Below are positions 47,509 to 51,479 of a DNA stretch of 64,000 nt, one piece after another. The notes beneath the pieces were generated by a model. That model made no database searches, was not told where the DNA came from, and was given only the letters and a program-made list of their open reading frames with translations. The stretch lies in NCBI RefSeq assembly GCF_000024785.1, contig NC_013441.1, positions 3,596,001 through 3,660,000 of the forward strand, given 5' to 3'. Both the position numbers and the translations under genes were made by a program. This DNA comes from Gordonia bronchialis DSM 43247. Its GTDB lineage: Bacteria; Actinomycetota; Actinomycetes; Mycobacteriales; Mycobacteriaceae. Numbering within the stretch: position 1 is the first letter of the stretch; the number at the start of each line of letters is the position of its first letter.

Positions 47509-49173
47509 TCACCGCTCGGTGACGCGCCCGCCCTCGACGCGCCAGTGCCGGTCGACGTGCACATTGGCCAGCATCCGACGGTCGTGTGTCACCAGCAGCA
47601 GTGCACCGTCGTAGGAGGCGAGTGCCGATTCCAGTTGTTCGATCGCGGCAAGGTCGAGGTGATTGGTCGGCTCGTCGAGCACCAGGACATTGGTGCCGCG
47701 GGCTTGCAGCAACGCCAACGCCGCCCTGGTGCGCTCCCCCGGCGACAGCTCGCTCACCGGCCGGTTGACGTGGTCGGCGCGTAACCCGAACTTCGCGAGC
47801 AGGGTGCGGACCTCGGCGCTGGTGAAGTCGGGGACGAACTCCTCGAAGCGCTCGGCGAGCGGCCGCGGACCGGTGAAGTGCCGACGCGACTGGTCGATCT
47901 CCCCGATCGCGACGTTGGCACTCAGACGCGCGTCGCCGCTGTCGGGTTCGAGATCGCCGAACAGCAGACGCAACAACGTCGACTTGCCGGCGCCGTTGGG
48001 CCCGGTGATCCCGATCCGCTCCCCTGCGTTGACCTGCAGCGACACCGGACCGAGAACGAAGTCTCCCCGTCGCACAACGGCATCGCTCAGCGTGGACACC
48101 ACAGAACTGGATCGCGGCGCGGAGCCGATCGTGAACTCGAGGACCCACTCTTTGCGTGGTTCGACGACCTCCTCGAGCCGCGCGATCCGGCTCTCCATCT
48201 GCCGAACCTTCTGCGCCTGCTTCTCGCTGGACTCACTGGCCGCACGCCGGCGATGCTTGTCGCTGTCCGGGGCTTTGCGGATCGCGTTGCGCACGCCCTG
48301 ACTCGACCATTCACGCTGCGTCCGGGCCCGGGCCACCAGGTCGGCTTTGCGTTCGGCGAACTCCTCGTATTCCTCACGCCGATGGCGTCGGGCGACCTCC
48401 CGTTCTTCGAGGAAGCTGTCGTAGCCACCACCGAAGACGGTGTTGGTGTGCTGCGCGAGATCGAGTTCGAGCACGCGGGTCACGCTGCGTGACAGAAACT
48501 CTCGGTCGTGGGATACCAGCACCACACCACCGCGCATCCCCTGCACGACCTCCTCGAGACGCGCCAGACCGTCGAGGTCGAGATCGTTAGTGGGCTCGTC
48601 GAGCAAGACGACGTCGAACCGCGAACACAGCAGCGCGGCAAGCCCGACACGCGCCGCCTGCCCGCCGGACAGGTCCGTCATGAGCGCGGATTCGGGTGCG
48701 GGCGTGCCGGTTTCGAGTCCGAGATCGACAAGTGTGGCGGCCAGACGTTCGTCCAGGTCGGGTGCGCCGGTCGCCAGCCAGTGATCGAGGGCGGCGGAGT
48801 ACACGTCGGCCAGATCGTCGGGATGGGCACCGTCGGGCGGGTCGGCCAGCGCGGCGGCCGCCGCATCCATCGCCGCGGTGGCCGCGGCGCATCCGGTTCG
48901 CCGAGCGACGTAGGCGCCGACCGTCTCCCCCGTCACGCGGGCATGCTCCTGGGGCAGCCACCCGACGAAAGCATCAGCCGGAGCACGCGTCACGGTGCCC
49001 TCCAGCGGAGCGAGATCCCCGGCGAGGACCCGTAGCAGCGTCGTCTTGCCGGCCCCGTTGGCTCCGACGACGCCGACGACGTCCCCCGGTGCAACGGTGA
49101 GATCCAGATGGTCGAAGAGGACCCGGTGGGCGTATCCGCCCGCGACGTCTTTGGCGACGAGTGTTGCGGTCAC
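47509..49173 (-). CDS. ABC-F family ATPase
   Basis: The product has 554 residues and two ABC domains without membrane segments. Domain 1: GVVGANGAGKTTLLRVLAGD, LSGGQAARVGLAALL, VVLLDEPTNDLDLDGLARLE. Linker: a long charged coiled-coil (RRHRREEYEEFAERKADLVA; ESSEKQAQKVRQMESRIARL). Domain 2: GITGPNGAGKSTLLRLLFGD, LSPGERTRAALALLQ, VLVLDEPTNHLDLAAIEQLE. ABC-F proteins act on the ribosome E site, some giving antibiotic protection. It lies 1.5 kb from erm. GTG start directly after the upstream stop. Confidence 0.9.
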   Translation of the reverse strand: MTATLVAKDVAGGYAHRVLFDHLDLTVAPGDVVGVVGANGAGKTTLLRVLAGDLAPLEGTVTRAPADAFVGWLPQEHARVTGETVGAYVARRTGCAAATAAMDAAAAALADPPDGAHPDDLADVYSAALDHWLATGAPDLDERLAATLVDLGLETGTPAPESALMTDLSGGQAARVGLAALLCSRFDVVLLDEPTNDLDLDGLARLEEVVQGMRGGVVLVSHDREFLSRSVTRVLELDLAQHTNTVFGGGYDSFLEEREVARRHRREEYEEFAERKADLVARARTQREWSSQGVRNAIRKAPDSDKHRRRAASESSEKQAQKVRQMESRIARLEEVVEPRKEWVLEFTIGSAPRSSSVVSTLSDAVVRRGDFVLGPVSLQVNAGERIGITGPNGAGKSTLLRLLFGDLEPDSGDARLSANVAIGEIDQSRRHFTGPRPLAERFEEFVPDFTSAEVRTLLAKFGLRADHVNRPVSELSPGERTRAALALLQARGTNVLVLDEPTNHLDLAAIEQLESALASYDGALLLVTHDRRMLANVHVDRHWRVEGGRVTER

Positions 49174-49828: not shown

Positions 49829-50413
49829 TCACGAACGCTTGATGTAGAGGCCCGACCAACCCGAGATCGATCCGGTCACGGTGATGACCGGTCCTCCGCG
49901 CTCCGACGGGGCCCCGGCCTTGTCCTTGATGGAGGACCACCCCGACCGCGACAGATCCGGGTAGCGGATCTCCTGGGTGCGCCCTAAGCGGACCTTCACA
50001 CTCGACGCCGAGACCTGGAGTTCCAAGTCCATGAGTGGCACACGAAACACGGCGTTGCTGAAGTCGAGGTCGGCGGTCCCCATCGAGCCGGTGACGAGTA
50101 TGCGCGGCGGCACCTCCCAAACACCCCTGCGGCGCACGGTCTGCCAGTTCACGTCGAGCTGCATCGGCACGCTCGTCGCTGGTCGCGCGAGAGCTGCGGC
50201 CGGCTCGTCGGGAAACAGTGAGGCCGCGGTCGGCAGGCCGTCGACGGTAACGCGCAGCTGGCCGCGTGTGCGCGCGGCATAGACCGCACCCGACCGGTCC
50301 TCGAACGCGGTGACGTCGAGATACCCCGACGAGAAGGCATCGTTGAGCAGTCCGATGGCACGTTCCCGTTCTGGGTTCCCTACCAAGATGTCGTCTTTGT
50401 CGGTTTCGCCCAT
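49829..50413 (-). CDS. DUF1707 domain protein
   Basis: The product has 194 residues. NPERERAIGLLNDAFSSGYL followed by DVTAFEDRSGAVYAARTRGQ and LRVTVDGLP is the DUF1707 SHOCT-like domain. The second half (VTGSMGTADLDFSNAVFRVP; LMDLELQVSASSVKVRL; VITVTGSISGWSGLYIKR) is a beta-rich adhesin-like DUF2154-type region. No transmembrane helix is obvious. Function unknown. Divergent from the erm leader. An ATG 9 bases upstream is an alternative start. Confidence 0.85.
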   Translation of the reverse strand: MGETDKDDILVGNPERERAIGLLNDAFSSGYLDVTAFEDRSGAVYAARTRGQLRVTVDGLPTAASLFPDEPAAALARPATSVPMQLDVNWQTVRRRGVWEVPPRILVTGSMGTADLDFSNAVFRVPLMDLELQVSASSVKVRLGRTQEIRYPDLSRSGWSSIKDKAGAPSERGGPVITVTGSISGWSGLYIKRS

Positions 50414-50500
50414 GGTCAACATGGTAGGGGTGGCCGGCACTGGCCGGCCGGGCTCATGCCGCGGGCAGAAAACCTGTCGCGGACGATGCCCGCAAACGAC

Positions 50501-50506
50501 TACCGT
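50501..50506 (+). promoter_or_regulatory. Candidate -10 box of the erm leader transcript
   Basis: TACCGT (TAnnnT) ends 7 bases before the leader-peptide ATG at 50514. If used, the RNA would be essentially leaderless, as is common in actinobacteria. An AGAAAACC stretch upstream could serve an activator such as WhiB7; that is speculation. Confidence 0.4.
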
Positions 50507-50513
50507 CGCCGCC

Positions 50514-50582
50514 ATGGGAACGCTCTACAGTGCGCCGTCGTCGGCGCGCAACACGAACATGGGTCGGCTGCGTCGCGCCTGA
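50514..50582 (+). CDS. Putative macrolide-sensing leader peptide of erm
   Basis: A 22-residue ORF (MGTLYSAPSSARNTNMGRLR, then RA) ends with TGA inside the loop of a perfect 9-bp hairpin. It contains Arg-Leu-Arg at residues 18-20, the arginine-X-arginine type motif at which macrolide-bound ribosomes are known to stall in ErmDL-type leaders. The 3' codons overlap the 5' arm of that hairpin, so a ribosome paused on Leu19 would open it. It lies 136 bases ahead of the erm GTG. Translation and stalling are inferred. Confidence 0.55.
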   Translation: MGTLYSAPSSARNTNMGRLRRA

Positions 50583-50647
50583 CGGCGCGACGACTCATTG
50601 TCTTTCTCGCGCCGTCGACCGAGATGTCCATGCACCTCGGCCGCGAG
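50532..50647 (+). promoter_or_regulatory. Candidate attenuator: ladder of mutually exclusive hairpins
   Basis: Six segments can pair with their neighbours: A GCGCCG (50532-50537), B CGGCGC (50542-50547), C CGTCGCGCC (50571-50579), D GGCGCGACG (50584-50592), E CGCGCCGTC (50608-50616), F CGCGAG (50642-50647). A:B, C:D and D:E (through GACGGCGCG at 50581-50589) are perfect. B:C pairs over six bases, and E:F pairs CTCGCG with CGCGAG. Adjacent pairings exclude each other, the layout of translational or transcriptional attenuators. Confidence 0.5.
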
Positions 50648-50717
50648 ATCATCGCCGTGTGCGGTTCATTCGCCGCTGCTGGGTTGCGCCACGTCACGAT
50701 CCACGCTGGAGCGCACC

Positions 50718-51479
50718 GTGCCCACTTCCTCGTCACATGGCGGACGCCATGAGCTCGGACAGAACTTCCTCGTCCACCAGCCCACCATCCAACGCATCGT
50801 CGATCTCATCGACGCCACCGACGGGCCCATCCTCGAGATCGGCTCTGGCGGTGGCGCGCTCACCGCGCACCTGGCCGCCCTCGACCGGCCGCTGACCGCC
50901 ATCGACATCGACGCACGCCTCATACATTCTCTGCGACAGCGGTTTCCACACATCAACGCGCTGCATGCCGATGTGCTCACCCACGTCATCGACGCGCCGG
51001 TGGTCGTGGGCAACATTCCGTTCCATCTGACCAGCGCCATCCTGCGACGACTCCTCGGCCATGACACGTGGACCGATTCCGTTCTGCTCGTGCAGTGGGA
51101 GGTGGCACGACGCCGAGCGGGGGTCGGGGGTGCCACCATGATGACGGCGCAAGCGGCGCCGTGGTTCGACTTCGCGCTACACGGCCGTGTTCCGGCCCGC
51201 GCCTTTCGACCGGCGCCCACCGTCGACGGCGGAATCCTCACCATCGCACGCCGTCGCCGGCCGCTGATCGATCCCCGCGACCGACGTCGCTACGAACGTT
51301 TCGTCGGTGACGTCTTCACCGGCCGGGGCCGTGGCATCGCAGCGATCCTCCGTCGCCACGCCGACGGCCGGCGGGTCGCCGACGCCTTGCGTCGCTCCGG
51401 AGTCGGACCATGGGCGTTGCCACGCGATCTTGATGTCGCACAATGGGTTTCGCTGTGGACCACCATCGGTAAACGATGA
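50718..51479 (+). CDS. erm: Erm-type 23S rRNA (adenine-N6) methyltransferase
   Basis: The product has 253 residues. Erm signatures: GGRHELGQNFLVHQPTIQRI at the N-terminus, ILEIGSGGGALTAHLAALDR (SAM-binding), TAIDIDARLIHSLRQRF, the catalytic VVVGNIPFHLTSAILRRLLG, and VQWEVARRRAGVGG. It is closest in style to the chromosomal Erm of mycobacteria and Rhodococcus, which methylates A2058 and gives MLS resistance. The GTG start has TGGAG six bases upstream. A long structured leader precedes it. KsgA is a distant alternative, but the GRHELGQNFL start favours Erm. Confidence 0.9.
   Translation: MPTSSSHGGRHELGQNFLVHQPTIQRIVDLIDATDGPILEIGSGGGALTAHLAALDRPLTAIDIDARLIHSLRQRFPHINALHADVLTHVIDAPVVVGNIPFHLTSAILRRLLGHDTWTDSVLLVQWEVARRRAGVGGATMMTAQAAPWFDFALHGRVPARAFRPAPTVDGGILTIARRRRPLIDPRDRRRYERFVGDVFTGRGRGIAAILRRHADGRRVADALRRSGVGPWALPRDLDVAQWVSLWTTIGKR

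Follow-up and report, generated by a model that had tools for sequence, protein, structure and literature searches.

The erm gene of Gordonia bronchialis DSM 43247 follows a short open reading frame that carries an Arg-Leu-Arg (R-L-R) motif, which raises the question of whether its expression responds to macrolides through an arrested ribosome. A preliminary description of the window, i.e. the whole 64,000-nt stretch of DNA that was analysed, had read the locus as an erm attenuator. This first reading is supported by the comparison of related loci reported here, and we estimate at roughly 70% the probability that a macrolide-inducible attenuator controls erm. What the comparison supports is the upstream ORF (uORF), its R-x-R motif, the spacing to the -10 box and to the stop codon, and the alternative helices; by the same evidence, the locus appears to belong to a conserved family of actinobacterial R-x-R erm attenuators.

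Leader, promoter and erm gene at the locus

The leader and the gene that follows it comprise these features:

50469..50472, + strand: AAAA, candidate WhiB7-type AT-rich box, 28 nt 5' of the -10 box (sequence)
50501..50506, + strand: -10 box TACCGT (TANNNT), 7 nt 5' of the leader start codon, a spacing kept in relatives
50514..50582, + strand: leader ORF, 22 codons, MGTLYSAPSSARNTNMGRLRRA (translation; predicted to be leaderless from relatives)
50565..50573, + strand: codons R18-L19-R20, predicted stall site (P site Leu19, A site Arg20; R-x-R conservation, analogy with ErmDL)
50718..51479, + strand: erm, 23S rRNA methyltransferase, 253 aa, GTG start (NF000499, 247.8 bits, cut-off 212)

Translation bears out the 22-codon ORF with R-L-R at codons 18-20 that had been described, and places its TGA stop codon at 50580-50582. 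Transcription is predicted to start at 50513/50514; a consensus promoter scan found no consensus promoter or -35 element at this leader. As for erm, it probably starts at the GTG at 50718, with GGAG at 50708-50711, which fits the alignment of the relatives. The downstream frame begins at a TTG at 50598 in the ORF list, and such a start would run through the spacer. The product scores above the curated cut-off of the broad Erm model and below that of every named Erm allele model tested, the nearest alleles being Erm(46), Erm(55) and Erm(38) (288.4, 279.4 and 272.9 bits against cut-offs of 503, 525 and 800, respectively; other models scored lower). About 1.3 kb from the erm leader, the opposite strand encodes an ABC-F ribosomal-protection-like protein (47509-49173, - strand; NF000355, 379.2 bits, cut-off 380), making two putative ribosome-protection factors in the window.

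The R-x-R leader is conserved upstream of actinobacterial erm genes

Within the genus, 6 of 59 genomes contain a match to Erm, one match being partial and interrupted by an internal stop. The counts are 61 of 401 for a sample of the family, 29 of 394 for a sample of the class, 79 of 295 for the genus of genome G507 and 10 of 23 for the genus of genome G189, with overlap between these samples. Among 36 named loci, close Erm relatives (56-65% identity) belong to Microbacterium, Leifsonia, Agrococcus and Amycolatopsis, and the remaining 28 are distant (25-32%). Forty plasmid records also match Erm, including Corynebacterium (11), Prescottella (8), Rhodococcus (5), Cutibacterium (5) and Dietzia (2). 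The 205 loci were reduced to 162 distinct upstream regions by removing those with less than 44% identity or fewer than 140 bits, seven duplicates and one short region.

In 151 of the 162 regions, a uORF of 10-25 codons carries R-x-R close to its C-terminus and is preceded by a TANNNT -10 box, the box being sought 4-10 nt 5' of the uORF start and TTG starts being allowed. Taken separately, an R-x-R uORF occurs in 153 regions and a uORF with TANNNT at that distance in 156. Dinucleotide shuffles yielded 41.8 and 12.2 per 162, respectively, and 2.0 with both on one ORF; the corresponding counts were 57, 17 and 1 on the reverse strand of the 162 regions, and 32, 3 and 0 in DNA further upstream (160 regions). 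The preliminary description had held that such an attenuator on a leaderless mRNA in a mycolata chromosome would be notable. The leader is not peculiar to that setting, as Microbacterium, Leifsonia and Amycolatopsis loci share it.

The middle residue of the motif is Asp in 82 of the 151 leaders, Leu in 24, Ile in 17, Gly in 11 and another residue in 17, and the third residue of the motif is the third from the C-terminus in 127. The distance from the -10 box to the start codon is 7 nt in 109 leaders, 6 in 35, 8 in 5 and 10 in 2. Start codons are ATG (123) or GTG (28), and never TTG. Leaderless initiation in mycobacteria was found to require ATG or GTG (PMC4633059). Exclusive use of these two codons at a fixed spacing from the -10 box, with no room for a Shine-Dalgarno sequence (SD), fits leaderless transcription, and the earlier guess of a leaderless mRNA is thus backed by a -10 box at 6-8 nt in 149 of 151 cases. 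The leader mRNA is very probably leaderless, judging from these spacings.

Eleven of the 162 regions lack the full call of leader and -10 box. In five Corynebacterium-type loci (L081, L083, L084, L087 and L091), the leader start is present and R-P-L replaces R-x-R, as in the L083 leader MLISGSVFMRPLTNR; for the other four this was judged by eye. L048 and L107 have the R-x-R leader and no TANNNT. By eye, the leader frame is disrupted in L077, and the region of L113 appears shortened and has no R-x-R. No R-x-R/-10 leader was called in the upstream regions of L010 and L058. In L077, L113, L010 and L058, erm may be constitutive or otherwise regulated. Outside the 162, R-x-R leaders that follow a TANNNT box at 7 nt were also seen in four loci with more distant Erm proteins (L096-L099, 35-39% identity).

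Nine leaders are poly-alanine peptides (L059, L060, L061, L062, L065, L067, L076, L093 and L095), e.g. MSSSAAAAAAAAVVDRGRI. With a run of Ala codons before R-G-R, they might also be sensitive to alanine supply.

The nearest Erm relative of the G. bronchialis protein, that of L039, shares 85% protein identity with it. Between the two loci, the leader is identical at 64 of 69 positions (93%) and the non-coding spacer at 127 of 135 (94%); the figures are 75% for third codon positions of erm, 40 of 50 (80%) for the 50-nt promoter and 89 of 102 positions for the next 110 nt upstream of it. The L039 leader ends in RLRLA, and its RNA has a better arm 5 (by eye) and one mismatch in the A:B helix defined below.

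A candidate WhiB7-type promoter in part of the family

WhiB7 acts through an AT-rich motif just 5' of the -35 element, as reported in PMC3905903. Between -34 and -27 relative to the -10 box, a run of four A/T is found in 25 of 38 same-family non-coryne-type loci (control windows 1, 2, 1, 1 and 0), in 2 of 11 same-family coryne-type loci (controls 1-4) and in 17 of the remaining 102 (controls 0-2). The AAAA of G. bronchialis lies at a matching distance. Its genome encodes five WhiB-domain proteins, one of which has EPWGVWGG and the C-terminus RKRPRGRPRKTAA, and which we take to be WhiB7.

It could be argued from this that WhiB7 alone controls erm at the promoter and that the uORF is a passive translated leader which senses no drug. 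The WhiB7-like protein and the AT-rich box 5' of the -10 are consistent with such a view, and erm is described as a member of the mycobacterial WhiB7 regulon (PMC3905903, PMC10727445). However, it leaves the conserved R-x-R, its distance to the stop codon and the covarying exclusive helices described below unexplained. Moreover, the A/T box is found in only the above-mentioned 17 of 102 loci outside the family, yet leader and RNA persist there. Control by WhiB7 alone is therefore quite improbable, and we retain the attenuator, to which WhiB7 probably adds a transcriptional layer in Mycobacteriales.

Conserved, mutually exclusive RNA helices

The RNA segments of the leader and spacer in G. bronchialis are as follows:

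50530..50549, + strand: 8-bp hairpin early in the leader (first half), including one U-G pair (base-by-base check)
50571..50579, + strand: arm 1 (A), partner 50584-50592 (base-by-base check; stem with the stop codon in its loop in 136 of 151 leaders)
50580..50592, + strand: stop codon and arm 2 (B), of which 50580-50590 can pair with arm 3 (alignment, base check)
50605..50617, + strand: arm 3 (C), 50607-50617 pairing with arm 2 and 50605-50611 with the outer part of arm 4
50619..50623, + strand: D1, inner part of arm 3, partner D2 (D1:D2 99.0% paired with compensatory changes, 85 sequences)
50632..50648, + strand: arm 4, comprising D2 (50632-50640) and the outer part H (50642-50648) (alignment)
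50679..50690, + strand: arm 5 (E), anti-SD (alignment and base-by-base check)
50708..50714, + strand: arm 6 (F), GGAGCGC, containing the erm SD (E:F 99.0% paired, 85 sequences)

Three perfect pairings, said to exclude one another, had been described at this locus. The one around the stop codon stands as described, with nine perfect pairs (50571-50579/50584-50592) and a 4-nt loop that holds the stop codon. The pairing of arms 2 and 3 exists and excludes that hairpin, one of its 11 pairs (50580-50590/50607-50617) being U-G. The hairpin early in the leader (50530-50537/50542-50549) also exists; it too contains a U-G, and it overlaps neither of the other two, so that there is no geometric exclusion. 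Its 5' arm, GCGCCGTCG, is identical to 50609-50617 of arm 3 and could thus compete for arm 2, which would have three possible partners. As a general part of the leader this hairpin was rejected, since GCGCCG is found in only 27 of 96 MG-type leaders. The region 50513-50720 folds more stably than chance (z = -2.26; 3 of 200 shuffles as good), as the preliminary description had suggested checking. The leader ORF, the R-L-R motif and the hairpins are real.

Across the 151 leaders, a perfect stem of at least 5 bp with the stop codon in its loop is found in 136 (shuffled 12.6) and a third arm of at least 8 bp in 130 (shuffled 24.0), these shuffles preserving base composition only. Such conservation could mean that the RNA matters and the peptide does not, the Arg codons arising as a side effect of a GC-rich stem: the last codons of the leader overlap arm 1, CGC and CGG suit such a stem and, as noted above, shuffled upstream regions already yield an R-x-R uORF in 41.8 of 162 cases. 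Nevertheless, the first Arg of the motif lies outside the 1:2 core and is kept through different codons (CGC 97, CGG 38, AGG 10 and CGT 6), L063 and L072 have R-x-R with hardly any stop stem (the 151 leaders having been selected for R-x-R), and the ATG or GTG starts lie at a fixed spacing from the -10 box. An RNA without a functional peptide is barely plausible in view of these features, and we consider leader peptide and RNA together as parts of the attenuator.

Two alignments were built. A1 comprises 85 of the 93 loci that passed the filters (L203 was out, having no GGAG; L009, L062, L067, L071, L076, L108, L131 and L150 were left out). A2 comprises 38 more divergent sequences, from Mycobacteriales, coryneform and other loci, out of 44 short-type loci (L088, L089, L092, L111, L112 and L126 were left out). 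In A1, the OFF set of helices is A:B, D1:D2 and E:F, and the ON set is B:C and D2:E. OFF and ON cells are paired at 97.8 and 96.9%, with 45 and 41 cells changed on both sides (shuffled 16.1 and 5.5). The covariation scores are 0.128 for OFF and 0.132 for ON (shuffled 0.088 and 0.097), neither being reached in 500 shuffles, which do not remove the relatedness among sequences. The number of pair types was reached by 177 of 500 shuffles for OFF, i.e. not above chance, and by 15 of 500 for ON, a moderate signal.

The two sets meet in shared segments, as D1:D2 and D2:E share D2, and D2:E and E:F share E. Over the 85 sequences, D2 maintains pairing with both of its partners, covarying with D1 (A-U 46, G-C 39) and with E (C-G 38, U-A 30, U-G 12). 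One segment with two exclusive conserved partners is the best evidence of a switch that the alignment offers. The E:F helix, which would hide the erm SD, shows changes on one side only, and A:B shows no compensatory change in A1 (paired fraction 0.955 versus 0.954 in the permuted control). As for the outer 3:4 helix, C:H, no specific covariation of H was found in the 85 sequences. It forms in 84 of 85 but is equally common when H is swapped between rows (84.3), and its mean of 8.32 pairs versus 7.83 after swapping (maximum 8.18) does not support C:H covariation beyond composition.

A2 follows a similar scheme, with 91.0% of OFF and 92.9% of ON cells paired and changes on both sides in five OFF and four ON pairs. 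Its scores were reached by 2 of 500 shuffles for OFF and none for ON, and its OFF pair types by 64 of 500; the ON set slid by three columns scores 0.094 versus 0.102 in register. Four C:H pairs are 100% paired in A2 and, being nearly invariant, carry little information. RNAalifold on the 85 sequences gave the ON helices and, weakly, arm 1 paired to arm 6. In the family register, the A:B, B:C, D1:D2 and C:H helices of G. bronchialis are intact, and its arm 5 is imperfect (D2:E 8 of 9 pairs, E:F 5 of 7).

The switch is therefore larger than first described, with six arms that reach the erm SD. It is likely, from these alignments, to operate as a relay in which 1:2, 3:4 and 5:6 pair in the OFF state, hiding the SD, and 2:3 and 4:5 in the ON state. 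In five loci with short spacers (60-63 nt; L057, L063, L066, L072 and L074), the third arm seems by eye able to pair with the SD flank, and these loci possibly have a four-arm version.

Among the 59 genomes of the genus, a strict-filter search with an RNA model of A1, which included G. bronchialis and two relatives, found the element in three, in every case directly 5' of erm, and missed the other three erm-bearing genomes. With Rfam, no leader match at the gathering threshold was found in six relatives, and two sub-threshold matches lie near the G. bronchialis leader. An ordinary TPP riboswitch (RF00059) occurs at L128:567-658, elsewhere than the leader.

Folding calculations

Equilibrium folding with ViennaRNA showed no release of the SD on stalling, the mean unpaired fraction over the 85 sequences being 0.05 for the free RNA and 0.05 for the stalled one; it rose by more than 0.2 in one sequence and fell in two. 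For G. bronchialis it goes from 0.03 to 0.26 with a stalled ribosome, and an equal rise is obtained if the ribosome is placed on the last codon or if the RNA 3' of arm 2 is folded alone, so that the effect is not stall-specific. In the minimum-energy fold of this RNA, the first codons of the leader are base-paired to the SD region. The D2:E helix forms with and without stalling (means of 7.05 and 6.37 expected pairs over the 85), and on stalling, 21 of the 85 sequences gain more than one D2:E pair and 6 lose more than one.

The preliminary description had proposed that a stall frees arm 2 to pair with arm 3. Conservation of the alternative helices agrees with this, but the folding of the G. 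bronchialis RNA forms C:H instead. With the ribosome on R-L-R and the RNA cut at arm 5, the expected pairs are 6.74 for C:H, 0.01 for B:C and 0.00 for D2:E; at full length they are 4.80 for C:H and 2.23 for B:C. The free RNA already favours B:C over A:B (7.78 versus 0.14). Averaged over the 85 sequences, with the ribosome at R-x-R and the RNA cut at arm 5, B:C has 5.81 expected pairs and C:H 0.56. Switching at equilibrium is thus not supported by the folding of the 85 or of the G. bronchialis RNA. The relay logic is likely but energetically unsupported, and the coupling of its two halves rests on that logic and on co-transcriptional order, not on energy.

Proposed mechanism, and transcription attenuation as an alternative

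Transcription would begin at or next to the leader AUG, and ribosomes would load on a leaderless mRNA, as the conserved spacing suggests. In the absence of drug, the leader would be read through, arms 1:2 and 3:4 would pair, and arm 5 would mask the erm SD in arm 6. A drug-bound ribosome is predicted, by analogy with ErmDL, to stall at R-L-R once Leu19 has reached the P site and Arg20 the A site. As the distance from the P site to the leading edge of a ribosome is usually about 16 nt, the stalled ribosome would end approximately at the end of the stop codon, cover arm 1 and spare arm 2. Arm 2 would then take arm 3, arm 4 would take arm 5, the SD would be freed and the methylase made. We infer the stalling, the folding order, the coupling of the two halves and the translation of erm as the regulated step.

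Alternatively, regulation might bear on transcription, as in ermK, which is controlled by transcription attenuation: a hairpin between leader and erm would end transcription, and a stalled ribosome would prevent termination. In three of the 151 loci (L080, L082 and L120), a GC-rich spacer hairpin seems by eye to be directly followed by a T-run, terminator-like and unlike the remaining leaders, and actinobacterial whiB7 uORFs are described as using a Rho-independent terminator (PMC10727445). Against this, there is no + strand terminator-like site in 50380-50800, 10 of 151 spacers have six T in 7 nt, and arm 5 has the SD as its conserved partner. An intrinsic terminator between leader and erm was accordingly rejected for G. 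bronchialis, and we regard transcription attenuation as unlikely, compared with an attenuator acting on erm translation. A terminator-like stem with a T-rich tail lies on the - strand (50495-50477, region 50483-50492), near the upstream region of the divergent ORF.

Comparison with known systems

Translational attenuators with exclusive hairpins that hide the SD are classical in staphylococcal ermC and ermA, the latter with six segments. The proposed actinobacterial relay shares the hidden SD with both and the number of segments with ermA. In contrast, ermC and ermA use other stall motifs and their own SD, and ermA has two leader peptides.

With regard to the peptide, the closest parallel is ErmDL, the leader of ermD, which also has R-L-R in a short leader before erm. 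In its arrest at the +X+ motif, the P site contains Leu7 and the A site Arg8, and the motif is reported to be largely dispensable for erythromycin (PMC8298421). The likeness lies in the peptide motif and the predicted stall position. The ErmDL motif occupies codons 6-8, whereas here the third residue of the motif is mostly the third from the end and the mRNA is predicted to be leaderless.

Several named resistance genes have leaders of the same kind. That of Corynebacterium erm(X), whose product is approximately 45-50% identical to G. bronchialis Erm, shows the same design, with MLISGTAFLRLRTNR or ...RLRSNR, TATAAT 7 nt before the ATG, and GCCGGGCGG...GCCCGGC arms. This leader is known, and translational attenuation was suggested for it in PMC3350403, whose accessible text does not mention a leaderless start or six arms. 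Among the Erm(36), Erm(55) and Erm(46) leaders, MGSPSIAVTRFRRF and MGITSVAVIRIRRF have TANNNT 6-7 nt upstream and similar arms; in Erm(46) of R. pyridinivorans (L214), the leader is present and EFR replaces R-x-R. In six plasmid records, an R-x-R leader with TANNNT 6-7 nt upstream precedes Erm(36), Erm(50), Erm(51), Erm(55) and Erm(X). The gene tables of these records, which are incomplete, list no leader CDS. The Erm(50) and Erm(51) leaders (L216 and L217) have 25 codons and R-L-R mid-peptide, which implies another position of the ribosome footprint relative to the hairpins. Such leaders are easily overlooked, as they are ORFs of 10-25 codons without an SD.

A 2024 survey found that erm uORFs and palindromes are not universally conserved and proposed independent origins (PMC11264731). 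The actinobacterial Erm clade points the other way, with one design in 151 of 162 loci. A broader reading, to which we give slightly less than even odds, is that one ancestral leaderless R-x-R six-arm attenuator, whose uORF starts at nucleotide +1, travels with a clade that includes Erm(36), (50), (51), (55) and (X), under a WhiB7-type promoter in Mycobacteriales. The shared design predicts inducible expression for named resistance genes in Micrococcus, Cutibacterium, Mycobacteroides and Corynebacterium. Leaderless loading may also be part of the sensor, as drug-bound ribosomes could start on a 5' AUG without an SD.

Ribosome-sensing uORFs for drug resistance are known in actinobacteria from whiB7/wblC (PMC10727445, PMC4128351). 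These differ from the erm leader, as whiB7 is described as having a Rho-independent terminator and, in mycobacteria, a uORF that follows an SD (PMC10727445, PMC4128351). If the broader reading is correct, Mycobacteriales would sense the drug twice, in transcription by the whiB7 uORF and on the erm mRNA by the erm leader.

In the literature searched, mostly outside subscription journals, we found no paper that describes a single leaderless design with six arms across actinobacterial erm genes, and nothing on erm with Gordonia or on arrest peptides with actinobacteria. A 2009 review in Mol Microbiol reportedly covers erm leaders, and individual examples of such leaders may already appear in it. 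The R-x-R arrest motif was already known from ErmDL; what the comparison adds is a recurring, predicted-leaderless design across actinobacterial erm genes, which makes leaderless arrest-peptide sensing directly testable.
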